A stretch of 32,275 nucleotides of DNA from Methylobacteriaceae bacterium. GTDB taxonomy: Bacteria > Pseudomonadota > Alphaproteobacteria > Rhizobiales > Beijerinckiaceae. The translations under genes were made by a program, and so were the position numbers. Shown in pieces: positions 5,380 through 31,339 of the stretch (position 1 is the first letter of the stretch; the number at the start of each line of letters is the position of its first letter). The stretch is from positions 1 through 32,275 of the forward strand of contig JAFAME010000149.1 in the NCBI GenBank assembly GCA_019233695.1, given 5' to 3'. The notes beneath the pieces are model-generated. The model did no database searches and had not been told where the DNA came from. It saw nothing but the letters and a program-made list of their open reading frames with translations.

Positions 5380-6633
5380 ATGTCGCTCATGCCGCCCCGC
5401 ACCTTCCAGGCGTCCGAAGACCCAGCGCTGCTGACGGCGCAGCTTCTCGTTCGTATCGGGTTCGGCGTCCTTGCCATTGCCGTACCGGTAACCGCCGCAT
5501 TTTCGCGTCGGGCGCTGTTCGTGCTTCTTCCGTTCGGTGCCGCGCTTATCCTGATCGCCGCCGTGCTGTCCCAGCCCCGGCGGGGCTGGGACAGGCTTCT
5601 TTCAGCTCTTCGCTCGCCGATCGGCATCGCCGCGTTGTTTCTCTGCCTGTGGTCGGCGCTGTCGCTGTTGTGGACCCCCTATCCGGTCGATGGCATGCAG
5701 CGCCTTCTCAAGGTCGTCAGCACGCTGGCACTTGCGACCGTCGCCGCCGCGTTCCTCCCCGAGCGGATGCGGCTCTCCTCCCTCTATCTGCTGCCGATCG
5801 GAGTGGCCCTGGCCTCAGTGATGACCTTTGTCATCGCTCTCAACGGCGGCGCGCACATCTCCGGCACCCCCGAGGGCGACTCGTTTACCCTGCAGCGCGC
5901 CGTCATCGCTCTCATCATCCTGGTATGGCCGGCTCTGGCGATGCTGACGACGAGAGGGCGGGGGCCTCATGCCGGCGCTCTCGCCGTCGGTGTCGCCGCG
6001 GGCGCCATCGCGGCAAGATCGCCGCCCGCGCTTCTCGCCCTCAGCGTCGGAGCGCTCGCCTACGCGGCGTCCAGATTCGACCTGCGTCGGACCGCGTTGG
6101 TCCTTGCCCTGGCGGCTGCCATGCTGTTTATCGCGGCGCCGGCGCTGCCGTTCCTGATCAAGGCCACTGCATCATTCTCGACCGGGGCCGAGCCGCATTG
6201 GATGCGTACCGTCGATGTCTGGGTCGACATTGTGCGGCCCCAAAAGGCGCGGCTGATCACCGGGCATGGCCTGGAGACCATGTTGCGCGGCATGCTGGCG
6301 GGCTATCTGCCGCCAGGAACGCCGAGGAGCATCCTTTTCGAGGTCTGGTATGAGCTCGGCGTCGTCGGCGCGGTCACGATGGCGTTCCTCCTCGCGCGGG
6401 CATTTTGGACGGCCGGCAAGGGCACCCCCGGCGTCGCACCGTTCCTTGTCGCCGCGCTCGCCGCCGCCGTGACGCTCGCCGTGCTCGATGCCAACATGGC
6501 ACAGCTCTGGTGGGTGACCTTGCTCGGCATCGCGGCGATCTGCTTTGCGGCGGTCCTCAATGGCCAATACCGAACGAAGCGTCCGGTGGCGCGTCCGTCT
6601 ATCGATTCGCCCCCGCGATCGACGGCCTTTTGA
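5380..6633 (+). CDS. O-antigen ligase / polymerase-like membrane protein (Wzy_C type)
   Basis: A polytopic inner-membrane protein of about 417 residues with roughly ten hydrophobic segments. It resembles the WaaL/Wzy superfamily of O-antigen ligases and polymerases. Supporting features are the RSPPALLALSVGALAY block in the middle and the C-terminal half containing HWMRTVDVWVDIV and GHGLETM, followed by LFEVWYELGVVGAV, the usual layout of the Wzy_C periplasmic loop. It probably transfers or polymerises a surface glycan, but the substrate cannot be told. ATG 5380 was chosen because upstream sequence is not protein-like. GTG 5305 (442 residues) is open and in frame. The 3' end overlaps the convergent ABC exporter gene by 35 bases. 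The adjacent MsbA-like exporter makes an envelope role plausible. Confidence 0.72.
   Translation: MSLMPPRTFQASEDPALLTAQLLVRIGFGVLAIAVPVTAAFSRRALFVLLPFGAALILIAAVLSQPRRGWDRLLSALRSPIGIAALFLCLWSALSLLWTPYPVDGMQRLLKVVSTLALATVAAAFLPERMRLSSLYLLPIGVALASVMTFVIALNGGAHISGTPEGDSFTLQRAVIALIILVWPALAMLTTRGRGPHAGALAVGVAAGAIAARSPPALLALSVGALAYAASRFDLRRTALVLALAAAMLFIAAPALPFLIKATASFSTGAEPHWMRTVDVWVDIVRPQKARLITGHGLETMLRGMLAGYLPPGTPRSILFEVWYELGVVGAVTMAFLLARAFWTAGKGTPGVAPFLVAALAAAVTLAVLDANMAQLWWVTLLGIAAICFAAVLNGQYRTKRPVARPSIDSPPRSTAF
5566..5594. repeat. Perfect 14-bp inverted repeat inside a coding region
   Basis: The arms CTGTCCCAGCCCCG (5566-5579) and CGGGGCTGGGACAG (5581-5594) are exact reverse complements around a single central base. 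They lie within the membrane-protein gene and encode the segment LSQPRRGWDR between two hydrophobic stretches. There is no T-run, so it is not an intrinsic terminator. It may be a chance product of high GC, a protein-binding palindrome or a strong RNA hairpin. Confidence 0.6.
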
Positions 6634-8458
6634 CCGCATCGTCGTCTGGCTCGGTCGTCGCCCGGAGCAGCGATCGAGTATTGGCTCCGAATTGCGCCGC
6701 GAAGAATGCCTGATACGAGCCGCCGCGGGCAATCAGCTCCTGATGGGTGCCGCGTTCGACCGCCCGGCCGCCCTCGATCACGCAGATCGTGTCGGCATTG
6801 ATGATCGTCTGCAGCCGATGCGCCACGACGACCACGGTGCGTCCGAGCCGCAGTTCGTCGAGTGCCTTTTGGACTTCGCGCTCCGATTCCGAATCAAGCG
6901 CCGCCGTCGGTTCATCGAGCAGGATGATGTGCGCATCCTTCAGGATCGCGCGGGCAATCGCAATGCGCTGCCGCTGCCCGCCGGAAAGCTGCGCACCCTG
7001 CTCGCCGACGCTCGTGGCATATCCGGCCGCAAATCCGCTGATGAACTCGTGGGCGTGCGCCTTGCTGGCGGCGGCGCGGATTTCCGTGTCGGTCGCGCCC
7101 GGCTTGCCGAGCGCAATATTGTCGCGGATCGTCCCGCGAAACAGGAAGACGTCCTGCGAAACGAAGGCGATCCTTGCCCGCAGCGAGGCAAGATCGACTT
7201 CGCCGATGTTCTGCCCGTCAATGCGCATCGTCCCGGCGCAGGGGTCGTAGAAGCGCTGGATGAGATTGATGATTGTCGTCTTGCCGGCGCCCGATGGTCC
7301 GACGAGCGCGGTCATGCGGTTGGGCTCCACCACAAGCTCCAGACCGCGCAGAACCGGCTCTCCTGCCCGATAGTGGAAGTCGACGGCCTCGAAGACGATG
7401 CGCCCTTCCGCGACCGCAAGCGGGGGTTTGCCGGGCGTGTGGTCCTCGCGGGCTGGCATGTCGATGATCTCGTAGATCAGGCGCGCACCGACGAGGCCGC
7501 TCTGGACGTCGAGGTTGAGGCGCCCCAAGCGCCTGGCTGGCTCGTAGGCCATCAGGAGCGCGGCCATGAAGGCGAAGAACGAGCCCGGGTCGGCGTTGGC
7601 GAGCGTGACACGCCAGCTGCCGTAGAGGATGATGGCGGCAACGGCCAAGCCTCCCAGCGTATCCGAGAGCGGGCCCGAGAGCGCCACGCCGGCGGCCATC
7701 CGATTGGCCGACCGCTGCACCTCGCGGATCGCGGCGGCCATGCGGCTGCGCATGGTCTCTTCAAGACCGAAGGATTTGATGATCCTGATGCCGAGAACGG
7801 TCTCCTGCATGGTTTGCATGATCCGCGTCGAGCCGTCAAAGGAACGGCGTGCGAACTTGCGCACTCGGCGGATGACCTGGCCGAGGGCCGCTGCCGCCAC
7901 CGGGACGACGGAGATGGCGAGAATCGCCATGAGGGGATCCTCGACGAGCATCACTATCGCGAGGGCAATCACCGTGAGGATGTCGCGACCGAGGCTGGAG
8001 ATCAACAGCTGCAGCGTGTCGCGCACGCCGTTGGCAGCCATGGCGAGCCGCGCCATGAACTCGCTTGAATGGTGAGTTTGAAAGAAATCCACGTCCTGGC
8101 GCAGGAGATGGTCGTAGACGCGCGCCTGGACCGTCGCGACGATCTTGTTGCCGGTACGCGACATGATGACCAGTTGTCCGTAGGTCGCCACGCCGCGAAG
8201 CATGTAGAGACCGGCCGTGACGAACGCGAGCCAGCGTAAATGCTTGAAGTCGGACGCACTCATCATGCCGTTGACGATGGGCCGCAGGAGCGACACCGAC
8301 GCGCCGGTCGCCACCGCGCTCACCGCCATCAGCAATCCCGCGGCCGCATAGGCCAGAACATACGTCCGGCCATGTTCCCCGATCAGCCGGCGGATCATGG
8401 CAAAGGTGCCCGTCTGCTGCAGCAGCAGGACTTCAGTCGAGGGCTCGGCCGGCAGCAT
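6599..8458 (-). CDS. MsbA-like ABC exporter (fused permease and ATPase)
   Basis: A 619-residue half-transporter with a six-helix exporter membrane domain (about residues 25-325) followed by a complete ATPase domain (about 350-590). Catalytic motifs are intact: Walker A GPSGAGKT (387-394), Q-loop VSQD, signature LSGGQ (491-495), Walker B IILLDEP (511-517) and H-loop H547. The sequence resembles lipid A/lipid exporters of the MsbA group, which flip lipid-linked substrates across the inner membrane as homodimers. The neighbouring O-antigen-ligase-like gene, with which it overlaps tail to tail by 35 bases, supports an envelope role, but the substrate is inferred. A serine/aspartate-rich tail of about 25 residues follows the ATPase domain. 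The start is ATG at 8458. The upstream 183 bases separate it from the divergent amidohydrolase gene. Confidence 0.88.
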   Translation of the reverse strand: MLPAEPSTEVLLLQQTGTFAMIRRLIGEHGRTYVLAYAAAGLLMAVSAVATGASVSLLRPIVNGMMSASDFKHLRWLAFVTAGLYMLRGVATYGQLVIMSRTGNKIVATVQARVYDHLLRQDVDFFQTHHSSEFMARLAMAANGVRDTLQLLISSLGRDILTVIALAIVMLVEDPLMAILAISVVPVAAAALGQVIRRVRKFARRSFDGSTRIMQTMQETVLGIRIIKSFGLEETMRSRMAAAIREVQRSANRMAAGVALSGPLSDTLGGLAVAAIILYGSWRVTLANADPGSFFAFMAALLMAYEPARRLGRLNLDVQSGLVGARLIYEIIDMPAREDHTPGKPPLAVAEGRIVFEAVDFHYRAGEPVLRGLELVVEPNRMTALVGPSGAGKTTIINLIQRFYDPCAGTMRIDGQNIGEVDLASLRARIAFVSQDVFLFRGTIRDNIALGKPGATDTEIRAAASKAHAHEFISGFAAGYATSVGEQGAQLSGGQRQRIAIARAILKDAHIILLDEPTAALDSESEREVQKALDELRLGRTVVVVAHRLQTIINADTICVIEGGRAVERGTHQELIARGGSYQAFFAAQFGANTRSLLRATTEPDDDAVKRPSIAGANR

Positions 8459-8637: not shown

Positions 8638-8641
8638 CCTC

Positions 8642-9808: not shown

Positions 9809-9811
9809 AAG

Positions 9812-10721: not shown

Positions 10722-10743
10722 GCATCGATATGCTTTTCGGCAA
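10714..10743 (-). promoter_or_regulatory. Candidate promoter of the LysR gene, possibly leaderless
   Basis: Read on the minus strand, TTGCCG (10743-10738) and TACGAT (10719-10714) are separated by 18 bases and resemble sigma-70 hexamers (four of six matches each). The start codon A at 10708 is the sixth base after the -10 hexamer, where transcription would begin. The absence of a ribosome site fits a leaderless message. Confidence 0.35.
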
Positions 10744-10805
10744 TTTATTTATGAAGGCATGAGGCACACCTTGGCCTTCGAGAATTTTCTCTCGGAGACT
10801 AACCC

Positions 10806-11825
10806 ATGACTCAGGCAATCGATAGAACGGCGCGCCGGCGCCTTGCGCTCGTGATCGGGGCGACCGGAACCATCGGCAGCGCTGCGGCCGCGGCGCTTAA
10901 GACGCACGGCTGGGCCGTCCGAGCGCTGACCCGCGATCCCGGGCGCATCTCCGGCGGCCCTGCCGGGATCGATTGGGTGAAGGGCGACGCCATGGTCGCC
11001 CGCGATGTCGTCAGGGCCGCCGAGGGCGTGACCCTCATCGTTCACGCCGCCAATCCTCCCGGCTACAGGAACTGGCGCGGTCTTGCCATCCCGATGCTGC
11101 AGGCCTCCATCGCGGCGGCCCGCGCCAGCGGCGCGCGTCTCGTGCTTCCGGGCACCGTCTATAACTTCGGCGCCGATGCGGGCCCGGTCATCACCGAGGC
11201 ATCACCGCAGCATCCGACGACTCGAAAGGGTGCCGTGCGGGTCGAGATGGAGCGCCTGCTGGCGGAGGCGGCCCGCACGGGCGTGCGCTCGCTCATCGTT
11301 CGCGCCGGCGACTTTTTCGGCCCGCATGCAAAGAACAGCTGGTTCACGCAAGGGCTCGTCCGCGGAAGCCGACCGCTGCAATCGATTCCCTACCCTGGCC
11401 CCCGCCACGTCGGACATACCTGGGCCTATGTGCCGGATCTCGCCGAGACGATCACGCGCCTCGCCGAGATCGAGGCCGATCTCCCGGACCACGAGATGTT
11501 CAATTTCGGCGGGCACTGGATGGAGCCGGGGGTCGAAATGGCGCATGCGGTGCGCCGGGCTTTGGGGGCTCCCGAGCTGCCGATTCGCGGCTTTCCTTGG
11601 TACGCGGTCTATCTCGCCGCACCTTTCGTGACCATGATGCGCGAGATGATCGAAATGCGCTATCTCTGGAAGGTGCCCCTGCGGCTTGACAACCGCAAGC
11701 TTGTCAGCGTGCTTGGCACGGAGCCGCACACGCCGCTCGATCAGGCAGTGCGCGCGTCGCTGCAAAGTCTTGGACATCTCGAACCGACGGCGGTTGAACG
11801 CGAGCGTACTCTGACGGCGCTGTGA
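10806..11825 (+). CDS. NAD-dependent epimerase/dehydratase-like SDR protein
   Basis: A 339-residue extended short-chain dehydrogenase-like protein. The nucleotide-binding motif GATGTIG is at residues 18-24, followed by a Rossmann pattern. Blocks such as VRAGDFFGP and GHTWAYVPDLAET are typical of a subfamily annotated only as NAD-dependent epimerase. The catalytic YxxxK dyad of classical SDRs is not seen where expected; the region reads TTRKGAVRVEMERL. The protein may therefore bind NAD(P) without classical SDR chemistry, or use other residues. GGAGA lies just upstream of the ATG. It is divergent from the LysR gene, with 97 bases between, and is its likely target. The function is unknown beyond the fold. 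Confidence 0.82.
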   Translation: MTQAIDRTARRRLALVIGATGTIGSAAAAALKTHGWAVRALTRDPGRISGGPAGIDWVKGDAMVARDVVRAAEGVTLIVHAANPPGYRNWRGLAIPMLQASIAAARASGARLVLPGTVYNFGADAGPVITEASPQHPTTRKGAVRVEMERLLAEAARTGVRSLIVRAGDFFGPHAKNSWFTQGLVRGSRPLQSIPYPGPRHVGHTWAYVPDLAETITRLAEIEADLPDHEMFNFGGHWMEPGVEMAHAVRRALGAPELPIRGFPWYAVYLAAPFVTMMREMIEMRYLWKVPLRLDNRKLVSVLGTEPHTPLDQAVRASLQSLGHLEPTAVERERTLTAL

Positions 11826-18067: not shown

Positions 18068-21000
18068 ATGAGCAGCCTGGTCATGACGCGATCTGCCGAT
18101 CGCTCCCGCCCGTCGGCGGGCAGGCAACCGATGCTTGACGGGCTATTCGCCTACATCTGGAAGAACAGTCGCAAAGAGCAGCTGACCATCCTGGCCATCG
18201 TCCTTGTGTCGTTCCCGTTCTACTATATTTCGCTCGATCTCCCGAAAGCCATCGTGAACGATGCGATCCAGGGCCATGCCTTCGCTAATGGTCGGGAACA
18301 GGCGGTCCTGTTTCACCTGAGCCTGAGCCTCCCCGCCTTCCTGGGCGGCGGGACATGGACCATTTTTCCGGGCATGCCACTGTCCCGGCTCGATTATCTG
18401 TTGTGGTTGAGCGGCGCCTTCCTCGTCCTCACCCTCATCAACGGCGCCTTCAAATACGTCGTCAACATGAGGAAGGGGAAGCTCGGCGAGCGCGTTTTGC
18501 AGCGCCTGCGCCTCGATCTCTTCACGCTGCTCCTGCGCTTCTCCCCGGAAGCCATCCGCAACGTGAAGGCCTCGGAAACGGCAACCATCATCAAGGACGA
18601 AGTTGAGCCGATCGGCAATTTCGTTGGCGACGCCTTCATCCAGCCGGCCTTTCTCGGCGGACAGGCGGTCACCGCGCTTGCCTTCATTCTTCTGCAGAGC
18701 CCCTCGCTCGGCATCATCGCGGGCGGCATGGTCCTCGTGCAGGGCTTCATCATCCCACGCATGCGCCGCGAGCAGCTGCGCCTCGGCAAGCAGCGCCAGC
18801 TGCAATCGCGCTCGCTCGCCGGGCGCATCGGCGAGATCGTCGAGGGCATGGCCGAGGTCGACAACCATGGCACCTCGAACTATGAGCGGCACAAGATCTC
18901 GCGCCTTCTCGATCAGCTGTTCTGGATCCGCTACAAGCTGTACGGGCGCAAGTTCATGGTGAAATTCATCAACAATACTTTGGCCCAGATCACGCCCTTT
19001 ATGTTTTACTCGATCGGCGGATATTTTGCGCTGCGCGGCTCGCTCGACATCGGGCAGCTCGTGGCCGTCATTGCCGCCTATCGCGACCTGCCGCCGCCGG
19101 TAAAGGAGCTGATCGACTGGGACCAGCAGCGGCTCGATGTCGAAGTGAAATACCAGCAAGTCATCGAGCAATTCTCCGGCGGCGATCTGGCGTCAGCAGC
19201 TGGCGAGTCCCTGCCGCCGATGACGACCGGCTCGATCGAGCTGCAGGGCTTGCGGGTCGTCGGCAGCGGCGGCGATGTGCTGCTCGACGGCGTCAACGCC
19301 GCCATTCCGCTTGGCTCCCATACCGCTCTCCTAGCGCTTTCAGGCGATGGGGCGAGCGTGCTGGCGCAGGTCATCGGCCGCCGCATCGCGGCCTATTCGG
19401 GCTCGGTGCGCATCGCCGGCCGCGACCTTGCGGCGCTCTCGGGCGCATCGATCGGGCCGCGGATGGCCTATGCCGGCCCCGAGGCGACGATCTTTCAGGG
19501 GACCATTCGCGACAACGTCGTCTACAGCCTGAAGCGCCAGCTCTCCGACGATGAGCGGGCGGCAAGAAGCCCCGGCAATCTGCCGGCAGGCGCCGCCGAC
19601 GACTGGATCGACTATGCCGCCGCGGGAGCGACCGGCCCCGGGGATATCGATGCGGCGGTCGTCGAGGCAATGGGCGCGGTCGGCATGGACGAGGCGGTGT
19701 ACCGCTTCGGCCTCGGCCAGAGCATCGATCCCGAGCGCGACGCGGCGCTTGCCATGCGCCTGGTCGAGGCAAGGCGGGCGCTGAGCGATGTCCTCGTTGC
19801 GGACGGCGCCAAAGACCTCATCGAGCCCTTCGACCCCAAGCTATTCAACCGCAACGCCACGGTTGGCGAAAATCTCGTCTTCGGCGTCGCCCGTGAGCCG
19901 GCCTTTGCTCCCGACCGGCTTGCAGAGCAGGAGTTCGTGCGCGCCATCCTCGACGACAGCGGCCTGACCCCGATGCTGGCCCAGATGGGCCTGCGGATCG
20001 CCGAGATGATGGTGGAGATCTTCGCCGGGCTCTCCGGCGACCATTTCCTGCTCGAACAATTCTCCTTCATTTCGGTCGACGAGCTGCCGGCCTACGAAGA
20101 GATCCTGGCGCGCACCAAGGGGCGCGGCCGTGGCGAGCCTGCGGAAGCCGACGTGCCGCGCCTCATCGCGCTTTCGCTCATGTATGTGGAGCCGCGCCAT
20201 CGGCTCGGCCTGCTGATCCCCGAGTTCGCAAGCCGCATCGTTGAGGCGCGCGCCGCCTTCATCGCGTCCGCCCCGCAGGGGCTGCGCGAGGCTGTCGAGT
20301 TCTACGATCCCGACCGATATTGCGCCGCCGCGCCGCTGCGCGACAATCTTTTCTTCGGTCGTATCGCCTACGGTGTCGCCGGCGCCTCGGAGCGCGTGAT
20401 CGGCGCGGTTCGCCGGGTCCTGGCCGAACGGGACCTCGATCGGGAAGTGTATCGACTGGGCCTTGATCATCAGGTCGGCCCCGGCGGCAGGCTCCTGTTC
20501 CCGTCGCAGCGAAACGCCATCGCCCTGGCGCGCTGCCTGATCAAGCGACCCGATATTCTCGTCCTGAACCAGGCGACGACGCCGTTCGGGGATGTCGAGG
20601 GGAGCGCGATCTTCCGCCGCATCAAGGAGAGGATGGCGGGGCGAACCCTCATGGTGGTAACGCGCGATCCGGAGGTGGCCGCAGCGTTCGACGGCGTGCT
20701 AGCGTTGCAGGACGGCAAGATCCGGCCGGCAAAGCCCGCGCCAAGGGCGGCAGCTGCGCCACCACACCCGCACGAGAGCGATACGGGCGCCAGCGCCGAG
20801 CTCAGGTCCTTGCGTGCCGTGCCGATGTTTGCGGAGATCGATACACCCCGGCTGAAGCTGATCGCATTTGCGAGCGAGCGCGTCGTCTTTGCGGCCGGTC
20901 AGATCGTCTTCCATCAGGGCGGCTCGCCCGATGCAGCCTACATCGTTCTCGATGGGGAAACCGACGCCCTCCTCGAGACCCCGGCGGGACGGATTGCACT

Positions 21001-21271
21001 GTCGCGCCTTGGCCCCAATTGCATCATCGGCGAGATGGGGGTCATCACGGGCGCACCGCGATCGGCCACCGTCATCGCCGCCACCGATACGACAGCCTTG
21101 CGCGTGCCCAGAGAGGTGCTCTTGGGGCTGCTCGCCGAATTTCCGCAGATGGCGCTCGCCCTGATGCGCGATCAGATAAGGCGGATCGTTTCCGCCGAAG
21201 CGCGGCTTGCCGAGGCGACCCAGGGCAAGGAACCGGTGGTCGTCCGTCCGGTCGGCGTCGAAGGCGAATAG
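18068..21271 (+). CDS. Degenerate ABC-exporter-like protein with cyclic-nucleotide-binding domain
   Basis: A 1067-residue protein. Residues about 38-340 look like an ABC exporter membrane domain. From about 388 an ATPase-like domain begins, but its catalytic residues are lost: the Walker A position reads ALSGDGASV (423-431, K to A429), the signature LFPSQR (810-815), Walker B ILVLNQAT (830-837, D to N834, E to Q835), and the H-loop VVTRD (H to R866). Between Q-loop and signature lie about 330 extra residues holding three related Q-loop/helical modules. Residues about 915-1040 form a cyclic-nucleotide-binding-like domain with IIGEMGVITGAPRSATVIA (986-1004). ATP hydrolysis seems unlikely. A regulatory or scaffold role in the membrane is an inference. 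AGGAAGG precedes the ATG. The PdxA-like gene follows with no spacing. The frame is intact, so it is probably functional. Confidence 0.85.
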   Translation: MSSLVMTRSADRSRPSAGRQPMLDGLFAYIWKNSRKEQLTILAIVLVSFPFYYISLDLPKAIVNDAIQGHAFANGREQAVLFHLSLSLPAFLGGGTWTIFPGMPLSRLDYLLWLSGAFLVLTLINGAFKYVVNMRKGKLGERVLQRLRLDLFTLLLRFSPEAIRNVKASETATIIKDEVEPIGNFVGDAFIQPAFLGGQAVTALAFILLQSPSLGIIAGGMVLVQGFIIPRMRREQLRLGKQRQLQSRSLAGRIGEIVEGMAEVDNHGTSNYERHKISRLLDQLFWIRYKLYGRKFMVKFINNTLAQITPFMFYSIGGYFALRGSLDIGQLVAVIAAYRDLPPPVKELIDWDQQRLDVEVKYQQVIEQFSGGDLASAAGESLPPMTTGSIELQGLRVVGSGGDVLLDGVNAAIPLGSHTALLALSGDGASVLAQVIGRRIAAYSGSVRIAGRDLAALSGASIGPRMAYAGPEATIFQGTIRDNVVYSLKRQLSDDERAARSPGNLPAGAADDWIDYAAAGATGPGDIDAAVVEAMGAVGMDEAVYRFGLGQSIDPERDAALAMRLVEARRALSDVLVADGAKDLIEPFDPKLFNRNATVGENLVFGVAREPAFAPDRLAEQEFVRAILDDSGLTPMLAQMGLRIAEMMVEIFAGLSGDHFLLEQFSFISVDELPAYEEILARTKGRGRGEPAEADVPRLIALSLMYVEPRHRLGLLIPEFASRIVEARAAFIASAPQGLREAVEFYDPDRYCAAAPLRDNLFFGRIAYGVAGASERVIGAVRRVLAERDLDREVYRLGLDHQVGPGGRLLFPSQRNAIALARCLIKRPDILVLNQATTPFGDVEGSAIFRRIKERMAGRTLMVVTRDPEVAAAFDGVLALQDGKIRPAKPAPRAAAAPPHPHESDTGASAELRSLRAVPMFAEIDTPRLKLIAFASERVVFAAGQIVFHQGGSPDAAYIVLDGETDALLETPAGRIALSRLGPNCIIGEMGVITGAPRSATVIAATDTTALRVPREVLLGLLAEFPQMALALMRDQIRRIVSAEARLAEATQGKEPVVVRPVGVEGE

Positions 21272-22279
21272 ATGCGGCCGATCGGCATCACGATGGGCGA
21301 TCCGGCAGGGATCGGTCCCGAGATCATCGCCAAGGCCCTCGCGCAGAGCGCTTCGGCTCCTGCCCTTGTGGTCGGTGATGTGGCGATCATGCAGCGGGCC
21401 ATCCGGATCACCCGGGTCGACCTGACGGTCCACCCGATCGATCGGCCCGGGGAGGCGCGATTTGGGCCGCGAACGATCGAGGTCGTGCGCGCGAGCAATC
21501 TTTCTCCCGACCTGCCGTTCGGGCAGGTTCTGAGGGAGGCGGGCCTTGCCGCCCACCACTACGTCGAGAGCGCAATCGATTTGGCCCTCCAAGACGCAAT
21601 CGGCGCCATCGTCACGGCGCCGATCAGCAAGGAGGCCTGGAAGGTGGCAGGCATCAACTATCCCGGCCATACGGAAATCCTCGCCGAGAAGACCGGTGCA
21701 AAGGATTTCGCGATGATGCTCGCCAACGATGATCTGCGCGTACTCCTGGTAACGATTCACGTCGCGCTCGCCGAGGCGATCAGGGCGCTCACGATCGAGA
21801 CGGAGCTGCGCGCCATCCGCTTGGCCGATGCCGCGTGCCGGAATTTCGGCGTGATAACGCCACGCGTTGCCGTCGCCGGTCTCAATCCGCACGCCGGCGA
21901 GAATGGGATGTTTGGCCGCGAGGATCTCGACATCATCGCGCCGGCCATCGCCTTGGCGAGGCAGGAGCGCATCGAGGCGAGTGGTCCCTGGCCGCCCGAC
22001 ACCGTCTTCATGCGCGCCAGGCGCGGCGAATTCGACGTCGTCGTGGCGCAATATCATGACCAGGGGCTAATTCCGGTGAAATATCTCGGCCTCGACCGCG
22101 GCGTGAACATCACGGTCGGCTTGCCGTTCGTGCGCACCAGCGTCGACCATGGCACCGCCTTCGACATCGCCGGCACCGGCAAGGCCGATCACGCCTCGCT
22201 GCGGGCGGCGATCGACCAGGCGATCGCCTTGACGCAAGCACGTCAAAACCAGCAATCGAGCGCCCGGCATGGCTCCTGA
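21272..22279 (+). CDS. PdxA-family 4-hydroxythreonine-4-phosphate dehydrogenase-like protein
   Basis: A 335-residue metal- and NAD-dependent oxidative decarboxylase-type enzyme of the PdxA family. PdxA proper acts on 4-phosphohydroxy-L-threonine in vitamin B6 synthesis, and the PdxA2 branch acts on sugar-acid phosphates such as D-threonate or D-erythronate 4-phosphate. Motifs are ITMGDPAGIGPEI (6-18), GHTEIL (132-137), and the metal histidines H163 (IHVAL), H207 (NPHAGENG) and H262 (YHDQG). GLPFVRTSVDHGTAFDIAG (283-301) completes the site. All catalytic residues are present. Its ATG abuts the stop of the ABC-like gene, and its 3' end overlaps the TIM-barrel gene by 11 bases. The usual pdxA neighbour ksgA is absent, so a role other than B6 synthesis is possible. 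Confidence 0.88.
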   Translation: MRPIGITMGDPAGIGPEIIAKALAQSASAPALVVGDVAIMQRAIRITRVDLTVHPIDRPGEARFGPRTIEVVRASNLSPDLPFGQVLREAGLAAHHYVESAIDLALQDAIGAIVTAPISKEAWKVAGINYPGHTEILAEKTGAKDFAMMLANDDLRVLLVTIHVALAEAIRALTIETELRAIRLADAACRNFGVITPRVAVAGLNPHAGENGMFGREDLDIIAPAIALARQERIEASGPWPPDTVFMRARRGEFDVVVAQYHDQGLIPVKYLGLDRGVNITVGLPFVRTSVDHGTAFDIAGTGKADHASLRAAIDQAIALTQARQNQQSSARHGS

Positions 22280-22952
22280 TTTCATCTTCATGCTGACGCG
22301 ACGCGATCGCACCATCGCCGATGCGCATGCGCGGCTCAAGGATGTCTTCGCCGAGGGCGTCAAGCACGTGGGCTTCAAGGACGTCGGCCTGCCCATCGCG
22401 GAGCTTCGCCGCATTGCCGATGCGGTCCACGCAGCCGGTCTTGCTCTCTACCTCGAAGTCGTGAGCCTCGATGCCGCGAGCGAAGTCGCGTCGGCCGAAA
22501 TAGCCTTGCAGCTTGGCGCCCACGTGCTGATGGGCGGCACGCATCCGCAGGCGGTCTTGCCGGTCGTGCGAGGCACGCCGATCAGATACTACCCGTTTGC
22601 GGGACGCGTCTCGGGGCACCCGAGCGTGCTGCACGGCACCATCGATGAGATCGTCGAGAGCGCCCGGCGCCTGGTCGAGACCGAAGGCGTGCACGGCCTT
22701 GATCTCCTGGCGTACCGCTTCGCGGGCGATGCACCCGCCCTCATCGCGCAAGTCTGCCGTGCCGTTTCAAAGCCGGTGGTCGTGGCGGGCTCGATCGATC
22801 GGGCGGCACGGCTGGCGAGCGTGGCAAGCGGCGGCGCTGCCGCCTTCACCGTCGGCACCGCCGTGCTCGATGGCGTGTTCCCGACCGGGCAGGGGCTGCG
22901 CGACCAGCTTGCCTTCGTCGTCGCCGCCGTGTCGAGCATGGGGCAACTCTGA
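22269..22952 (+). CDS. Uncharacterised phosphate-binding TIM-barrel protein
   Basis: A 227-residue protein in which eight beta strands of a TIM barrel can be picked out: FIFMLT, HVGFKDVG, LYLEVVS, HVLMGGT, IRYYPFAG, GLDLLAYRF, PVVVAGSI and AFTVGTAV. The last two, with AGS (173-175) and GTAVLDG (196-202), resemble the phosphate-binding ends of HisA-, NanE- and ThiE-like barrels. Candidate active-site residues are K37 and D38 (strand 2), E63 (strand 3) and H92. I cannot name the family. It overlaps the PdxA-like gene by 11 bases, so translation is probably coupled, and an isomerase or aldolase acting on a phosphorylated substrate or product of that enzyme is the best guess. Confidence 0.8.
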   Translation: MAPDFIFMLTRRDRTIADAHARLKDVFAEGVKHVGFKDVGLPIAELRRIADAVHAAGLALYLEVVSLDAASEVASAEIALQLGAHVLMGGTHPQAVLPVVRGTPIRYYPFAGRVSGHPSVLHGTIDEIVESARRLVETEGVHGLDLLAYRFAGDAPALIAQVCRAVSKPVVVAGSIDRAARLASVASGGAAAFTVGTAVLDGVFPTGQGLRDQLAFVVAAVSSMGQL

Positions 22953-24638: not shown

Positions 24639-24816
24639 GGATCGGGTGAGGCGGGCGCCTTCCGCCCTCTGACCGGTCGGAGCCCGCGCCATCGCTTGAC
24701 GCCGTCGGCGCGTTGCGGGCACATCGCGGCGGCCACACGCCTGCGTGCGGTCCCGATCGTCGGGCTCCCGACCAGGAGGGAGGCGATGTCGGTTGCCGCT
24801 CGTCACCGAAGGTACC

Positions 24817-25608
24817 ATGCTTCGCTCCGCCCTCATGAACGTCATGACCGCGACGGCCATCAAGGCCGGCCGCGGCCTCAAGCGTGACCTTGGCGAAATC
24901 GAGAATCTCCAGGTCTCGCTCAAGGGGCCCGGGGATTTCGTCTCCGCCGCCGACCGGCGGTCGGAGAAGATCATCTTCGAGGAATTGTCGAAGGCACGGC
25001 CCGGCTATGGATTCGTGCTGGAGGAGGCAGGCACCGTCGAGGGCAGCGACAAAACGCACCGCTGGTATGTCGATCCCCTCGACGGCACCACGAACTTCCT
25101 GCACGGCATTCCGCAGTTTGCCGTCTCCATTGCCCTCGAGCGGGAGGGCCAGCTGGTGGCAGGCGTCGTCTACAATCCCGCCACCGACGAAATGTACGTT
25201 GCCGAGAAGGGGCAGGGGGCCTATCTCAACAATCGGCGGCTGCGGGTGGCCGCACGCCGCGATTTTGCCGATGCGCTCATTGCCTGCGGGGTCCCGCTCC
25301 TCGGCAAACCGGAGGAGCATGCCCGTTTCCAGCGGGAGCTTGCGCTGATGATGACAAAGGCCGGCAACGTGCGACGGATGGGAGCAGCGGCGCTTGATCT
25401 CGCCTTCGTCGCAAGCGGGCGGTTTGACGGGTTCTGGGAGCGAGGCCTCAGCCCGTGGGACATGGCCGCGGGCATGGTGCTGGTGCGTGAGGCGGGCGGC
25501 TTCGTGACCGACGCCGACGGCGGCGACAGGGTCCTGACGGAGGGCACGATTTGCGTGGGGAACGAGATCATGCACCGCGAATTGATCAAGACCCTGCGAA
25601 TGGCCTAG
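24817..25608 (+). CDS. suhB: Inositol monophosphatase family protein (SuhB type)
   Basis: A 263-residue Mg2+-dependent phosphatase of the inositol monophosphatase family. It dephosphorylates inositol 1-phosphate or related sugar phosphates, and in some bacteria SuhB also aids rRNA transcription. Metal-site motifs are intact: LEEAG (68-72), WYVDPLDGTTNF (83-94) with D86 and D89, and SPWDMAAG (212-219) with D215. Length fits SuhB (about 267). ATG 24817 was chosen because AAGG lies six bases before it and the family pattern starts there. An in-frame extension to 24745 is not protein-like. It is separated from the Sel1 gene by 178 bases with no convincing terminator or promoter, so independent transcription is undecided. 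Confidence 0.92.
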   Translation: MLRSALMNVMTATAIKAGRGLKRDLGEIENLQVSLKGPGDFVSAADRRSEKIIFEELSKARPGYGFVLEEAGTVEGSDKTHRWYVDPLDGTTNFLHGIPQFAVSIALEREGQLVAGVVYNPATDEMYVAEKGQGAYLNNRRLRVAARRDFADALIACGVPLLGKPEEHARFQRELALMMTKAGNVRRMGAAALDLAFVASGRFDGFWERGLSPWDMAAGMVLVREAGGFVTDADGGDRVLTEGTICVGNEIMHRELIKTLRMA

Positions 25609-25731: not shown

Positions 25732-26739
25732 ATGTTACAACGGCGGCAGGACATGGCGCGCGAAAGAGGCAGCGACTTTGACCCTTACCGGCTTTCGTCT
25801 CCGCGTATCTTCCTGTTGCGGATGGCGCTTTTTCTTATCCTGATCGGGTTTGCCGTATTCATTCTCAACCAGCAGATCCGTGACGCGTTCATGCGCAATC
25901 CCGGCCTCAACGGGCTGATCATTTGCGTGCTCGTCATCGGCATTCTGCTGGCGTTTCGGCAGGTGTTGCGGCTTTTCCCCGAAATTCGTTGGGTCAACGG
26001 TCTGCGCCATCGCGATCCCGACGCGCCGCTCACCCACATTCCGACCCTGCTGGCGCCTGTGGCGATGCTGATCGGCGAGCAGCCGGGCACGCGGCCGATC
26101 TCGACCGTGACGCTGCGCGTCATCCTCGATTCGGTCGCCACCCGGCTCGATGAAGGGCGCGAGATCAACCGCTACCTCATCGGACTGCTCGTCTTCCTCG
26201 GCCTCCTCGGCACGTTCTGGGGCCTCATCGAGACGGTCGGGGCCATCGGCAACGTGCTTGCATCCATGCAGAGCGGCAGCGACACCACGGTGATGTTCGA
26301 CGAGCTGAAAGAGGGCCTGTCGAAGCCGATCGGCGGCATGAGCATCTCCTTCACCTCCTCGCTGTTCGGTCTGTCGGGCTCGCTCATTCTCGGCTTTCTC
26401 GATCTGCAGGCGGGCCAGGCGCAGAGCCGCTTCTATAACGAGATCGAGGACAACATCTCGATGCTCGCCACGGATGCACCCATCGAGGTCGTCGCGCCCC
26501 CGCCGATCCCGGCCGAATTTCGCGCTGCCATCGACCGGATGGCTGCCCTTAACGATCCGGCCAATTCGCGCGCGACGACGACTGCGATGGCCAACCTCGC
26601 CGAAGGCATCCAAGGCCTCGTCCATCACATGCGCTCCGAGCAGCAATTGATCCGCCGGTGGGTGGAGGCGCAGGCTGAGCAGCAGCAGGAGGTCAAGCGC
26701 CTCCTCGAGCGGCTGACCTCGGAGACCGAGCGGCGCTGA
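25732..26739 (+). CDS. MotA/TolQ/ExbB-type proton-channel protein
   Basis: A 335-residue inner-membrane protein with four likely membrane segments (about 26-46, 59-80, 148-170 and 203-225). The last two carry the conserved MotA/TolQ/ExbB core (LIGLLVFLGLLGTFWGLIET, and SISFTSSLFGLSGSLILG). A long cytosolic C-terminal tail ends in a charged, glutamine-rich coiled coil (about 295-335). With the MotB-like protein encoded 19 bases downstream, it should form a proton-conducting stator-like complex that couples ion flow to work across the envelope. There are no flagellar genes nearby. The operon pair is familiar in Rhizobiales, where its role is not well defined. The start is ATG 25732; ATG 25753 is possible. 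A TTGTCA hexamer at 25686 lacks a convincing -10 partner. Confidence 0.88.
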   Translation: MLQRRQDMARERGSDFDPYRLSSPRIFLLRMALFLILIGFAVFILNQQIRDAFMRNPGLNGLIICVLVIGILLAFRQVLRLFPEIRWVNGLRHRDPDAPLTHIPTLLAPVAMLIGEQPGTRPISTVTLRVILDSVATRLDEGREINRYLIGLLVFLGLLGTFWGLIETVGAIGNVLASMQSGSDTTVMFDELKEGLSKPIGGMSISFTSSLFGLSGSLILGFLDLQAGQAQSRFYNEIEDNISMLATDAPIEVVAPPPIPAEFRAAIDRMAALNDPANSRATTTAMANLAEGIQGLVHHMRSEQQLIRRWVEAQAEQQQEVKRLLERLTSETERR

Positions 26740-26758
26740 GGCGCCCGAAGGGGGCCTC

Positions 26759-27784
26759 ATGGCACTTGCCCGCGCTCGCCGCGACCGAACATTCAATTAT
26801 TGGCCAGGCTTCGTCGATGCGTTGTCGACGATGCTGCTCGTCATCATCTTCCTGCTCTCGGTGTTCATGATGGCCCAATTCTTCTTGTCGCGAGCCGCGA
26901 CCGGGAAGGATGCAGCCCTCCAGAAGCTCAACGCCCAGATCCAGGAGCTCACCCAGCTCCTCGCGCTCGAACGTGCCGGCAAGTCCGAGAGCGAGGGCAA
27001 TGTCGCCGCCCTCCAGGCAACGCTCGATGCAACCGAGAAGGAGAAGGCGAAGCTGCAGGGCGAGGCCGAATCGAGTTCGACCGCTCTTTCGAGTGCCAAT
27101 GGCCGAGCCTCGGGAGCTGCCCAGGAGCTCGACACCGAAAAGCAGATTTCGGCGCGTGCGCTTGCCCAGGTCGACATCCTCAACCAGCAGCTTTTGGCGC
27201 TGCGCCGCCAGCTTGCCGCCATCGAGGATGCCCTTGCCGTCTCGGAGAACCGCGACAAGGAGAGCCAGGCCAAGATCGCCGACCTCGGCTCGCGCCTCAA
27301 TGTCGCCCTGGCGCAGAAAGTGCAGGAACTGTCGCGCTATCGGTCCGATTTCTTCGGCCGCCTGCGCGAGATCCTCGGCAATCGGCCCGACATTCGCGTC
27401 GTCGGCGACCGGTTCGTGTTCCAGTCGGAGGTGCTGTTCAGCTCGGCCCAGGCAACGCTCAATCCTGAAGGCAAGACCGAGCTCGACAAGATCGCCTCGG
27501 CGATCAGCGATCTGGAGCGCGAGATCCCGCCGGAAATCCCATGGATCCTGCGGATCGACGGACACACCGACAAGCATCCGATTCAGTCGACGCAGTTTCC
27601 GACGAACTGGGAACTCTCGGCGGGGCGCGCCATCGCGGTCGTGCAATACCTTGTCTCGAAGGGCGTCTCACCCCAACGGCTGGTGGCTGCGGGCTTTGGC
27701 CAATACCAGCCGCTCGAACCGGGCGACGACGACGAATCGCTGCGCAAGAACCGCCGCATCGAGATGAAGCTGACCGAGCGGTAA
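26759..27784 (+). CDS. MotB-like OmpA-domain protein with membrane anchor
   Basis: A 341-residue partner of the preceding channel protein. A short cytosolic N terminus is followed by one membrane segment (about 18-43) that begins FVDALSTMLLVIIF. D20 sits where the proton-carrying aspartate of MotB/TolR/ExbD lies. A long periplasmic coiled coil (about 50-195) leads to an OmpA/MotB peptidoglycan-binding domain (about 205-341) with RIDGHTDKHPI, NWELSAGRAIAVVQYL and LRKNRRIEMKL. The layout is that of a stator subunit anchored to the cell wall, with a spacer much longer than that of flagellar MotB. GAAGGGGG precedes the ATG. Its stop faces the TadG-like gene, 42 bases away. Confidence 0.9.
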   Translation: MALARARRDRTFNYWPGFVDALSTMLLVIIFLLSVFMMAQFFLSRAATGKDAALQKLNAQIQELTQLLALERAGKSESEGNVAALQATLDATEKEKAKLQGEAESSSTALSSANGRASGAAQELDTEKQISARALAQVDILNQQLLALRRQLAAIEDALAVSENRDKESQAKIADLGSRLNVALAQKVQELSRYRSDFFGRLREILGNRPDIRVVGDRFVFQSEVLFSSAQATLNPEGKTELDKIASAISDLEREIPPEIPWILRIDGHTDKHPIQSTQFPTNWELSAGRAIAVVQYLVSKGVSPQRLVAAGFGQYQPLEPGDDDESLRKNRRIEMKLTER

Positions 27785-29401: not shown

Positions 29402-31231
29402 TCATTCTGCCGCTTTCGGCGAGGCGAGCGCAGCCGCGCCCGACGCGAACTGCAAGCGGGCCAGGCGCTCGTAGAGGCCATGCCGCTCGACGAGCACGGC
29501 GTGGGTGCCTTCTTCGACGATCCGGCCCTCGTCCATGACCAGAATGCGGTCGGCCGACAGAACCGTCGCAAGGCGGTGGGCGATGACCAGGGTGGTGCAA
29601 TGGCGCATCAGCTCGTCGAGCGCCGCCTGCACCTGGGTCTCGTTCTCGGCATCGAGCGCCGATGTCGCTTCGTCAAGCAGAAGCACCGGCGTGTTCTTGA
29701 GAATGGCTCTGGCGATGGCAAGTCGCTGGCGCTGGCCGCCCGACAGTGTGACGCCGCGCTCGCCGACCGCCGTCGCATATCCCTCAGGCAAGGCTGCGAT
29801 GAAGCCGTCGGCGGCAGCCTGTTCGGCCGCCGCGCGAACGTCAGCGTCGCTGGCCCCCGGCCGGCCGTAGCGGATGTTCTCGGCAATGGATGTATCGAAG
29901 ATCACCGCGTCTTGCGGCACCAGGGCGATACGATCACGCAACAACCGGGGGTCGACCGTGCGGATATCGACGCCATCGAAAAGGACGCGGCCCTCGCTCG
30001 GATCATAGAAGCGCATGGTGAGCTGGAAGACCGTCGACTTGCCGGCCCCCGACGGCCCGACGATCGCCACCGTCTCGCCTGGAGCCACCCGGAACGACAG
30101 ATCGGTCACGACCGCGTCCTGCGGCCGGGTCGGATAGAAAAAGCCGACGGATTCGAAAGCGATGTCACCCGAAGTCGCAGGGAGAAGGTTGGGGGCGGCC
30201 GGCGCGGTGATGCGCGATTTCACGGCAAGGATGTCGGCAATCCGCCCGGCAGCGCCCGCGGCTGCCGAAACCTCGCTCCACACTTCCGACAATTCGCCGA
30301 GCGCGCCCGCGCCGAAGACGGCGTAAAGCACGAACTGGGACAGCGCGCCGCCCGACATGCGATGGGCAAGCACGTCCTGCGCGCCGAGCCACAACACGGC
30401 AACGACGCTGGAAAACGCGAGAAAAATCGCAACCGCCGTCAGCCTCGCCCGCGCCCTGGCGGCGAGGCGGGCCCCGTCATAGGCGGCATCGGCGGCAGAC
30501 TTGAAGCGGTCGGCGCTCCGCTCCTGCGCACCGAAGGCCTGCATCGTGCGCACGGCCCCGATGCTCTCGGCGGCATAGGCGGTGGCCTCCGCCAGGCGAT
30601 CCTGGGCTCGGCGTGATCGGTTGCGCACGGCCCGACCGGCCGCATAGAGCGGCAGGACGATCAGCGGAATGGCAACCAGCACCAGCCCGGAAAGCTTCGG
30701 GCTCGTCACGACCATCATCGCTACCGCGCCGATGAACATGAAGCTGTTGCGCAGCGCAATCGACGCCGATACGCCGAACGCCGATTTGATCTGCGTCGTA
30801 TCGGCGGTGAGCCGCGACACGAGCTCGCCCGTCTTCGCCGTGTCGAAGAACGATGCATCGAGCTGCGTCAGATGTCGGAACACCGCATCGCGCAGGTCGG
30901 CCACAACGCGCTCGCCGAGGGTCGTGACGACATAGAAGCGCGTCGCGCTGGCGAGCGCCAGGACACCGACCACTCCGACCATCGCCGCAAAATATGCATC
31001 GATCAGTCCGGCGCCCTGTGGGGAGAAGCCGAAGTCGATCATTCGCCGTACGGCGATCGGCACGGTCAACGTTGCCGCCGCCGCGATGACAAGGGCCACT
31101 AGCGCCACGCCAATGCGGCGCTTGTAGCGCAGCGCGAACGGAACGAGGGGCGCGAGCGCCCGGAGCGAGGTTCGGGGCGATGCCTCGCTGCTGCCCTCGG
31201 TCGGCGATCGCTCCGATGATGTCGCGTTCAT
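29402..31231 (-). CDS. ABC exporter (fused permease and ATPase), lipid/multidrug type
   Basis: A 609-residue half-transporter. A polar N-terminal tail is followed by a six-helix exporter membrane domain (about 35-325) and a complete ATPase domain. Motifs are intact: Walker A GPSGAGKS (392-399), Q-loop LVPQD, signature LSGGQ (496-500), Walker B LLLDEA (517-522) and H-loop H552 in IAHR. It would work as a homodimer exporting lipids, drugs or peptides; the substrate cannot be told. ATG 31231 was chosen because AAGGGAG precedes it, and the upstream in-frame TTG at 31261 has none. It is divergent from the TrcR gene, with 249 bases between. It is clearly distinct from the MsbA-like exporter at 6599-8458 and contrasts with the degenerate protein at 18068. 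Confidence 0.9.
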   Translation of the reverse strand: MNATSSERSPTEGSSEASPRTSLRALAPLVPFALRYKRRIGVALVALVIAAAATLTVPIAVRRMIDFGFSPQGAGLIDAYFAAMVGVVGVLALASATRFYVVTTLGERVVADLRDAVFRHLTQLDASFFDTAKTGELVSRLTADTTQIKSAFGVSASIALRNSFMFIGAVAMMVVTSPKLSGLVLVAIPLIVLPLYAAGRAVRNRSRRAQDRLAEATAYAAESIGAVRTMQAFGAQERSADRFKSAADAAYDGARLAARARARLTAVAIFLAFSSVVAVLWLGAQDVLAHRMSGGALSQFVLYAVFGAGALGELSEVWSEVSAAAGAAGRIADILAVKSRITAPAAPNLLPATSGDIAFESVGFFYPTRPQDAVVTDLSFRVAPGETVAIVGPSGAGKSTVFQLTMRFYDPSEGRVLFDGVDIRTVDPRLLRDRIALVPQDAVIFDTSIAENIRYGRPGASDADVRAAAEQAAADGFIAALPEGYATAVGERGVTLSGGQRQRLAIARAILKNTPVLLLDEATSALDAENETQVQAALDELMRHCTTLVIAHRLATVLSADRILVMDEGRIVEEGTHAVLVERHGLYERLARLQFASGAAALASPKAAE

Positions 31232-31339
31232 GGGCTCCCTTACATCGGCTCGCGACAGCAACCCAAGGGCACGCCGCCTCGGACGATCAGATCACGCGAC
31301 CCAAGTTGCCAAAGCGCTGCAAATAGCGCCTGAAGCGAA

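Follow-up and report, generated by a model that had tools for sequence, protein, structure and literature searches.

Type I ABC exporters such as MsbA, TM287/288, TmrAB, and TAP share a membrane domain and an ATPase fold, and their ATP sites are composite, with the signature motif provided by one subunit and the Walker A and Walker B motifs by the other. Catalytic residues have been lost and function retained in exporters with one degenerate site, i.e., TM287/288 and TAP, as well as in CFTR and the sulfonylurea receptors (SUR); the last two are non-pump relatives of ABC exporters, and sulfonylurea receptors control a partner channel. Outside this fold, BcsA-PilZ is a polysaccharide synthase gated by a second messenger. 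HetC of Nostoc PCC 7120 is described in the available part of PMC10986499 as an ABC exporter with an N-terminal cyclic-nucleotide-type domain, a peptidase domain, and an ATPase catalytic residue that is needed.

The window analyzed here, a stretch of 32,275 nucleotides from a Methylobacteriaceae bacterium (contig JAFAME010000149.1), encodes a protein whose best structural matches are Type I exporters but which, unlike them, has no intact catalytic motif, carries a large insert, shows an inverted conservation pattern, and ends in a cyclic-nucleotide-binding (cNMP) domain. In TM287/288, TAP, CFTR, and SUR one canonical site is left, at least in large part, whereas most members of the family to which the window protein belongs would have neither composite site intact. 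Compared to HetC, the cNMP domain is C-terminal, a Pfam scan of the window protein found no peptidase domain, and the ATPase residues are lost, so the protein is not HetC-like. The likeness to BcsA-PilZ is that a messenger would control a device in the membrane that is linked to glycosyl transfer; the fold and the messenger domain are different, and the family does not belong with that synthase. Judged from its sequences, the family combines a predicted ABC-exporter fold with lost ATPase motifs, a putative helical-repeat insert, and a cNMP domain, fused or encoded next door.

Results

The window gene and its neighborhood

The preliminary description of this DNA had called the reading frame, more than 3 kb long, undamaged, and the open reading frame is indeed intact (Table 1). 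Translation may nevertheless start at the position of residue 22 instead of the ATG of the open reading frame, because the open frames of many homologues begin where this residue aligns. The gene is placed between pgk and a pdxA-like gene that begins at the base right after its stop codon and is probably cotranscribed with it. Two exporters lie 8 to 10 kb from the gene, one on each side; both carry K, Q, SGG, D, E, and H and are canonical, as had been stated.

Table 1. Features of the pseudo-ABC gene and of neighboring genes in the window
Feature	Residues	Position	Strand	Basis or remark
Canonical exporter		6599..8458	-	
Whole pseudo-ABC ORF		18068..21271	+	ATG start, 1067 codons/aa, frame intact
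ABC exporter membrane domain	22-372	18131..19183	+	Pfam ABC_membrane 88-336, conservation, model
Pseudo-ATPase, N-terminal half	385-488	19220..19531	+	Pfam ABC_tran 406-498, alignment, structure comparison
Degenerate Walker A (A429 at the lysine column)	423-430	19334..19357	+	Alignment
Repeat copy A, helical-subdomain unit (putative)	462-592	19451..19843	+	Profile-profile comparison
Degenerate Q-loop	P471	19478..19480	+	Alignment
Family-specific insert	489-769	19532..20374	+	Model
Repeat copy B (putative)	582-750	19811..20317	+	Profile-profile comparison
Repeat copy C (putative), spanning the canonical signature and Walker B positions	740-840	20285..20587	+	Profile-profile comparison
Pseudo-ATPase, C-terminal half	770-890	20375..20737	+	Alignment, structure comparison
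Degenerate signature (SGG columns)	F811-P812-S813	20498..20506	+	Alignment
Degenerate Walker B (N834 and Q835 at the D and E columns)	829-836	20552..20575	+	Alignment
Degenerate H-loop (histidine column)	R866	20663..20665	+	Alignment
Cyclic-nucleotide-binding domain	906-1050	20783..21217	+	Pfam cNMP_binding 939-1024, E 2.9e-19
Phosphate-binding cassette	988-1000	21029..21067	+	Alignment of 73 sequences
pdxA-like gene		21272..22279	+	Begins at the base right after the pseudo-ABC stop codon
Canonical exporter		29402..31261	-	

Synteny was searched in 78 relative loci, excluding matches to the pseudo-ABC gene and to frames antisense to it. In four loci (L058, L068, L086, and L087), an ORF just downstream matched the inositol-monophosphatase ORF of the window (35 to 36% identity); the aldehyde dehydrogenase was matched in two loci, the canonical exporters matched a single ORF, in L085, and no counterpart of pgk or of the pdxA-like gene was found in these 78 loci. 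The paralogue in the window is of the fused type, with the cNMP domain as part of the same protein; a second, unfused one, 50% identical, is found on another contig of the same genome. Rather than the lone oddity as which it had been treated, the gene is, by homology, a member of an alphaproteobacterial family. The features described at first all stand; overlooked were the cNMP domain, the second copy in the genome, the helical-subdomain repeats, and the association with cyclases and glycosyltransferases.

Graded loss of the ATPase motifs

Replacement of the Walker A lysine, the Walker B aspartate and glutamate, the SGG signature, and the H-loop histidine had been assigned by eye; an alignment that included 96 homologues and both exporters of the window, and a second one of 161 members, returned exactly the same residues (Table 1). 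The Q-loop glutamine is lost as well, which had not been reported. With six catalytic features (K, Q, SGG, D, E, and H) scored in the 161-member alignment, window included, the window protein retains none and thus lacks the Walker A lysine, Walker B D/E, SGG, and H-loop histidine of an active ATPase, and a score of zero is shared by 94 others (95/161). The Walker A lysine is kept in 34 members, Q in 16, the Walker B aspartate in 34, E in 22, and H in 10. The SGG signature is absent from all 160 members with letters at those columns; GG without the S is present in L111 and L147 and missing in the remaining 158. No member keeps more than four features or is fully canonical at these columns.

By this scoring, catalytic loss is graded across the family, because up to four of the six features survive in some members that fall outside the crown clades, and two members have GG. 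Parts of the family may still bind nucleotides, since the lysine is present in 34/161 members, K, D, E, and H are all present in L118 and L124, and GG is present in two members; an S or T follows the Walker A lysine in only 2 of the 34 lysine-keeping members (L141 and L166).

Distribution, conservation, and selection

The family was found in 146 of 387 sampled genomes, spanning 53 families, and its distribution is patchy, with 22 of 60 close relatives carrying it. Most of the listed genome matches are full-length open frames; some are partial or contain a stop, and in the S. meliloti Rm1021 record the gene is split into two frames. For 121 pairs of close homologues, dN/dS over the whole protein had a median of 0.075 and a range of 0.031 to 0.181, no relative being close enough for the window copy itself. 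These values indicate strong purifying selection on the family, not the relaxed selection that would have spoken for decay, and most of the motif losses recur family-wide. By part, the medians were 0.048 for the membrane domain (121 pairs), 0.083 for the ATPase remnant (110 pairs), and 0.087 for the insert (114 pairs).

Median identity to the window protein is 0.545 in the membrane domain versus 0.31 in the ATPase remnant, the reverse of three pairs of canonical exporters (membrane domain, 0.15 to 0.21; ATPase, 0.52 to 0.54), and the membrane domain holds 45 of the 60 near-invariant positions. By these measures conservation is inverted, the membrane domain being the best-conserved part of the family. 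The family's origin among canonical exporters is not placeable in our tree, because the branches to the outgroup reach about 10 changes per column and one canonical row grouped with L173 and L174.

Predicted structure and the insert

The AlphaFold (AF2) model of the window protein (pLDDT 86.6) supports a Type I ABC exporter fold, a membrane domain followed by an ATPase fold, which together with the Pfam hit agrees with the early statement that the membrane domain is kept. The model aligned with 3qf4_A with a Z of 25.4 (rmsd 4.7 over 428 residues), and the ATPase remnant superposed on the TAP1 ATPase domain with a Z of 24.5 (rmsd 2.4, 233 residues). TM287/288 and TmrAB, both heterodimeric, rank among the top matches, and SUR chains were matched as well. 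The Pfam scan returned three general domains only, and the best 25 of 82 NCBIfam matches were all under the cut-offs.

Inside the pseudo-ATPase lies an insert of about 280 residues, missed at first, which looks like two extra copies of the pseudo-ATPase's own helical subdomain. Profile comparisons between copies gave 92 to 98%, compared to at most 1.2% for 15 controls; one comparison (B3 vs C) was ignored, since it matched the shared overlap only. Against canonical sequence, the values were 99.5% for copy C, 97% for copy A, and only 75% for copy B, which makes copy B the least sure. The repeat assignment rests on the profile comparisons, because Foldseek with the insert alone against the PDB returned nothing at E ≤ 0.001 and a structural second look, in which ABC ATPase helical subdomains ranked first (2cbz; Z 4.8, 71 residues), is weak alone.

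The cyclic-nucleotide-binding domain

Both the Pfam fold of a cNMP protein and the cassette Glu and Arg are present in the window protein. G988, E989, R998, and A1000, which we take to be the cassette residues, are invariant in 73/73 sequences. Across 75 relative loci the cNMP domain is encoded by a separate ORF directly downstream in 65 and is fused in 7; no cNMP gene was detected in L085, L090, and L095, the last two of which end at contig edges. In a further set of mostly diverged loci it is present in 17 of 21. We infer that cAMP or cGMP would be bound by the C-terminal or partner domain, although such a domain need not bind cAMP, as that of HetC binds ppGpp in vitro according to the available part of PMC10986499.

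Association with glycosyltransferases, cyclases, and a polysaccharide cluster

The pseudo-ABC gene and one glycosyltransferase family co-occur near one-to-one; in raw counts that ignore kinship, 142 of 387 genomes have both, 4 and 3 have one only, and 238 have neither. Among the 61 loci of more than 18 kb, 35 have a cyclase (kinship ignored), and in the other 26 the models used found none; for comparison, the 5.36-Mb genome that carries the window encodes 13 cyclase domains in all. DUF3095, present in 31/387 genomes, about 25 of which have the pseudo-ABC gene, was rejected as a partner, the association being enriched but loose.

In annotated rhizobial loci, the cyclase, glycosyltransferases, pseudo-ABC, and cyclic-nucleotide protein occur together. 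In S. meliloti, gene order as read from tag numbering would put the pseudo-ABC gene, its cNMP gene, and the smb21265-type glycosyltransferase within smb21252-smb21271, and the family member thus appears to lie within the cluster for the phazolicin-protecting polysaccharide (PPP); the smb tags themselves were absent from the sequence records consulted. The available part of PMC10128002, which makes no mention of the pseudo-ABC gene, links a surface polysaccharide to smb21252-smb21271, of which nine genes are required, refers to cAMP regulation of genes that may take part in it, and reports a small effect of a cyaA mutant. The window copy is outside any PPP-like cluster and adjoins neither a cyclase nor a glycosyltransferase; no cyclase domain was found on its contig, and the glycosyltransferase pair is on another contig.

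Discussion

A non-hydrolytic role is the best reading, because the loss is common to a mostly intact family under purifying selection. The preliminary description had proposed selection for such a role, for example as a sensor or scaffold, instead of simple decay: the argument against decay stands, while a sensor or scaffold role is not established, a gated conduit being equally allowed. We give about even chances to a conserved pseudo-ABC exporter that does not hydrolyze ATP and has a cyclic nucleotide as its controlling ligand instead. Most likely, it would serve a surface glycan as a membrane gate or scaffold that works without ATP and under the control of a cyclic nucleotide. cAMP or cGMP would bind the C-terminal or partner cNMP domain, the signal would pass through the enlarged pseudo-ATPase region and the coupling helices to the membrane domain, and the gate or scaffold so switched would serve glycosyltransferases whose product is a surface glycan comparable to the PPP of Sinorhizobium meliloti. 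Most family proteins should then not act as ordinary ATP-driven pumps, despite their annotation, and the family, ranging from four features to none, would be a natural experiment in turning an ATPase into a non-hydrolytic signaling device. It would also offer a candidate route for protein-level cyclic-nucleotide control of surface polysaccharide in alphaproteobacteria, rhizobia included.

Whether a conduit is involved separates two narrower readings. A regulatory scaffold, in which the membrane domain only anchors a cyclic-nucleotide switch that controls the glycosyltransferases, much as in SUR, is possible though on the unlikely side: the loss of catalytic motifs, the glycosyltransferase co-occurrence, the intact cNMP cassette, and the SUR chains among the structural matches all agree with it, but the near-invariant positions concentrated in the membrane domain are more than an anchor should need. 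Rather doubtful is a messenger-gated channel or secretion conduit of exporter fold for a surface glycan, which would be driven by polymer synthesis of the co-inherited glycosyltransferases and not by ATP hydrolysis, the tandem helical subdomain carrying the new signal.

The protein could instead be the degenerate half of a heterodimeric exporter whose canonical half supplies ATP hydrolysis. There is ample precedent for exporters with a single degenerate site (PMC7756269, available part), TM287/288 and TmrAB match structurally, L111 and L147 keep GG, and the two flanking exporters are candidate partners. In a search with these two (E ≤ 1e-40; hits of 500 to 800 aa with both Walker A and LSGGQ, so that more distant exporters escape), however, a canonical exporter was detected among 178 loci only in the window's own locus (L007) and in L085, which is one of the 61 long loci. 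A normal composite site with a canonical partner is also impossible for the 158 of 160 members in which GG is missing, and a degenerate half appears quite improbable. A residual ATP-dependent exporter with unusual motifs, to which the four features of L118 and L124 and the GG of L111 and L147 could point, is very unlikely, given that no member has SGG, that the window protein and 94 others have no feature left, and that the lysine is so rarely followed by S or T. Recent decay of an ordinary exporter into a pseudogene, for which the missing motifs, the split S. meliloti frame, and the partial or interrupted matches might speak, is rejected for the family by dN/dS and seems extremely improbable with most listed matches being full-length open frames.

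A literature search, with most subscription journals outside its scope, found no paper describing this family, which is apparently common yet undescribed. Several of the plasmid records in which the gene is listed label its product "ABC transporter ATP-binding protein."

Motif loss in an intact exporter-like gene

As the preliminary description had held, the pseudo-ABC gene was found to be an open, undamaged frame. An alignment that included 96 homologues and the window's two exporters bore out every residue that description had called by eye (A429 at the Walker A lysine, FPS at 811-813 in place of the SGG signature, N834 and Q835 at the Walker B aspartate and catalytic glutamate, and R866 at the H-loop histidine), along with its statement that the other exporters of the window are fully canonical, as these carry the complete motif set. 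In the same alignment, the Q-loop glutamine of the pseudo-ABC protein is absent too (P471). An AlphaFold model of the protein (pLDDT 86.6, pTM 0.78) matched type I exporters in Foldseek, with a best E of 2e-15 but a global rmsd of 15.7; structural alignment gave a Z of 25.4 and rmsd of 4.7 over 428 residues with 3qf4_A, and a Z of 24.5 and rmsd of 2.4 over 233 residues for the ATPase remnant with TAP1 (2ixe_A).

Coordinates of the pseudo-ABC gene, its domains and associated features
Sequence	Position	Feature	Remarks
Window	18068-21271 (+)	pseudo-ABC gene	1067 codons
Window protein	residues 88-336	ABC_membrane	Pfam
Window protein	residues 406-498	ABC_tran, first part only	Pfam
Window protein	residues 939-1024	cNMP_binding, C-terminal	Pfam, E 2.9e-19
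Window	21272-22279	pdxA-like gene	
Window	24745-25608	inositol-monophosphatase-family gene	3.5 kb 3' of pseudo-ABC
Window	25732-27784	MotA/ExbB-like, then OmpA-like peptidoglycan-binding protein	ZorA-type match weak, below cut-off
L080 (Rhodospirillales)	8001-11552	pseudo-ABC member	GGDEF after cNMP domain
L108 (S. meliloti RCAM1750)	2148-3113	predicted polysaccharide lyase	annotated hypothetical
L113 (S. meliloti 1021, pSymB record)	19667-22433	split pseudo-ABC frame	two overlapping ORFs, 243 + 805 aa
L173	2434-5022	strongly diverged relative	379 bits
L174	2039-5086	strongly diverged relative	372 bits

The homologue search showed the same losses to be common to a family, though graded. Among 161 distinct aligned members including that of the window, none of the six canonical features is kept in 95, one in 34, two in 16, three in 14 and four in 2; retention per feature was 34 for the Walker A lysine, 16 for the Q-loop glutamine, 0 for SGG, 34 for the Walker B aspartate, 22 for the catalytic glutamate and 10 for the H-loop histidine, counts that are not population frequencies because the set over-weights high-scoring and hand-picked diverged members. 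The Walker A lysine, where present, is followed by S or T in only 2 of 34 members. The signature glycine pair is absent in 158 of 160 members (L178 ends before the signature and was left out), whereas loci L111 and L147 have GG preceded by a residue other than S. These two keep at most one of the six features, their glycines being retained or regained. The normal ATP sandwich is a composite site that needs the signature glycines; thus, for most of the family and for the window protein, no such sandwich is expected, either in a homodimer or with a canonical subunit.

A membrane-domain tree was built from 109 rows, i.e., 106 members thinned at 88% identity and 3 canonical sequences. Feature-rich members sit on intermediate branches, and the crown holds two large clades, of 20 and 33 rows, that retain at most two features. 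Since several of the deepest branches (e.g., L159-L165, L167 and L168) also lack nearly all features, the losses have recurred; the tree requires a minimum of 10 changes in presence of the Walker A lysine and of 3 in fusion with the cyclic-nucleotide-binding (cNMP) domain. The window copy groups with a Labrys member (L035; SH-aLRT 96). The root is unsure, as branches to the outgroup are very long and no single branch sets the outgroup apart as one side.

Selective constraint and an insert of repeated helical units

At the family level, dN/dS agreed with the earlier proposal of selection and not simple decay. Among closely related sequences (75-97% identity), dS was usable (0.1-1.6) in 121 of 131 pairs; in these 121 pairs, which share branches and are non-independent, the whole-protein median was 0.075 (range, 0.031-0.181), with medians of 0.048 for the membrane domain (121 pairs), 0.083 for the ATPase remnant (110 pairs) and 0.087 for the insert (114 pairs; maximum, 0.279). 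The groups nearest the window copy, Labrys and Ancylobacter, gave 0.104-0.166 (six pairs), the window copy itself being too distant from all relatives for an estimate of its own. Compared to canonical exporters, conservation is inverted: median identity to the window protein was 0.545 in the membrane domain, 0.375 in the insert and about 0.31 in each ATPase half (159-160 members), whereas canonical pairs (n = 3) showed 0.15-0.21 in the membrane domain and 0.52-0.54 in the ATPase. Positions at least 95% conserved (n = 60) fell in the membrane domain (45), insert (10) and ATPase remnant (5).

The insert, placed between the helices of the Q-loop and the signature, spans 263-298 residues in 97 members (282 in the window). 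Profile comparison resolved three copies (A, B and C) of one unit, the Q-loop strand and helix running into the helical subdomain, at 92% for A-B, 95% for A-C and 98% for B-C. Three canonical sequences matched copy C at 99.5% (95 columns), A at 97% (38 columns) and B at 75%, while other protein parts used as controls reached at most 1.2% in 15 comparisons. Modeled alone, the insert was confident (pLDDT 87.1), and its first structural matches were ABC ATPase helical subdomains, with a Z of 4.8 that is weak taken alone.

Retention of a cyclic-nucleotide-binding domain

A scan of species genomes yielded 78 loci, 75 of which hold pseudo-ABC over more than 500 aligned residues. At these 75, the cNMP domain was a separate ORF in 65 (its start offset by -112 to 232 bases from the pseudo-ABC end), fused in 7 and undetected in 3, two of them cut by contig ends. 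G988, E989, R998 and A1000 were invariant in 73 of 73 sequences. The domain was also present, fused or adjacent, at 17 of 21 further, mostly diverged loci (fused forms checked by Pfam), and was not found at L170, L173, L174 and L178, the last cut by a contig end. Judged from sequence, the family retains a predicted nucleotide-messenger site while the ATP site is lost. L173 and L174, from genomes of the window's family, are possibly a separate subfamily; an MBL-fold gene lies directly 3' of the L174 pseudo-ABC. L080 may unite cyclic-nucleotide sensing with a diguanylate cyclase on one pseudo-exporter.

Distribution and genomic setting

Profile search (E ≤ 1e-120) detected pseudo-ABC in 146 of 387 alphaproteobacterial genomes, and in 142 of 378 with completeness ≥90% and contamination ≤5%, across 90 of 264 genera and 53 families by our own count. 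Occurrence is patchy, 22 of 60 close relatives being positive at E ≤ 1e-100. In a phylum sample, 27 of 299 genomes matched at E ≤ 1e-90, the window genome among them and 4 over a partial profile only; all 27 belong to the window's class or closer, the listing not giving the share of the 299 outside it. The family is likely, though not proven, to be confined to Alphaproteobacteria. Plasmid records with pseudo-ABC numbered 263, chiefly Rhizobium (144) and Sinorhizobium (80). The window genome holds a second copy, a paralogue of 50% identity with a separate cNMP gene behind it, and genome G189 holds three fused members (L159, L160 and L161), indicating expansion by duplication in some lineages.

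Domain models matched a cNMP domain in 60 of 61 loci longer than 18 kb, a GTx- or GT4-type glycosyltransferase in 39, a peptide-type importer in 38, and a class III cyclase and an MBL-fold hydrolase in 35 each. As background, 13 cyclase domains in the 5.36-Mb window genome would give about 0.05 per 19 kb if evenly spread. Cyclases lie next to pseudo-ABC in two relatives with the fused form, L031 (Labrys) and L032 (Ancylobacter), and orthologues of those genes occur in L035, L101, L033 and L034; no cyclase domain was found on the contig of the window copy. Across the 387 genomes, the glycosyltransferase GTx (E ≤ 1e-60) and pseudo-ABC (E ≤ 1e-120) occurred together in 142, pseudo-ABC only in 4, GTx only in 3 and neither in 238 (Fisher p 7e-97, without phylogenetic correction). 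In the window genome, GTx adjoins GT4 on a third contig. DUF3095, another neighbor, is a looser companion, found in only 31 of the 387.

Possible link to the phazolicin-protecting polysaccharide of S. meliloti

In S. meliloti RCAM1750, GTx (annotated as hypothetical) is followed in order by GT4, an unlisted tag, an opposite-strand methyltransferase, pseudo-ABC, the cNMP protein, an FkbM methyltransferase and a LacI regulator. SM_b21272 is described as a LacI-family regulator in the available portion of PMC11387232, and smb21265 as a "glycosyltransferase family protein" of the phazolicin-protecting polysaccharide (PPP) in that of PMC10128002. Counting tags along this order would assign smb21265 to GTx, smb21269 to pseudo-ABC and smb21270 to the cNMP gene, all within smb21252-smb21271, where the same portion of PMC10128002 reports nine genes necessary for PPP. 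A further statement cited there is that cAMP controls genes with a possible role in PPP; cyaA was depleted in the paper's screen, but a cyaA mutant on its own showed little change. The pseudo-ABC frame, split in the record of strain 1021, is a single open frame of 922 codons in strains 2011 (L109) and RCAM1750. The predicted lyase gene lies behind the cyclase of this cluster.

A possible messenger-driven switch

With a normal ATP sandwich unlikely in most of the family and the cyclic-nucleotide domain still offering a putative ligand site, we infer a conformational switch that would be driven by a nucleotide messenger. It may be relayed via the enlarged pseudo-ATPase region to the conserved membrane domain, which could serve surface-glycan enzymes as a gate or a scaffold, either being possible. 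Pseudoenzymes and degenerate ABC sites are already known, and HetC, according to the available portion of PMC10986499, is an ABC exporter bearing a cyclic-nucleotide-type domain; our literature search found no description of a family that joins broken motifs throughout to repeats of the helical subdomain and a partner of the cyclic-nucleotide type.

Neighbors of the window gene

The window pseudo-ABC is flanked by pgk and pdxA. The pdxA-like gene begins at the base directly after the pseudo-ABC stop codon, so that the two are probably co-translated; no counterpart of it was found in the 78 relative loci. Four Agrobacterium vitis/Allorhizobium loci (L058, L068, L086 and L087) carry a counterpart of the inositol-monophosphatase-family gene, 35-36% identical, just 3' of the cNMP gene. 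The MotA/ExbB-like and OmpA-like genes are a possible proton-channel pair.
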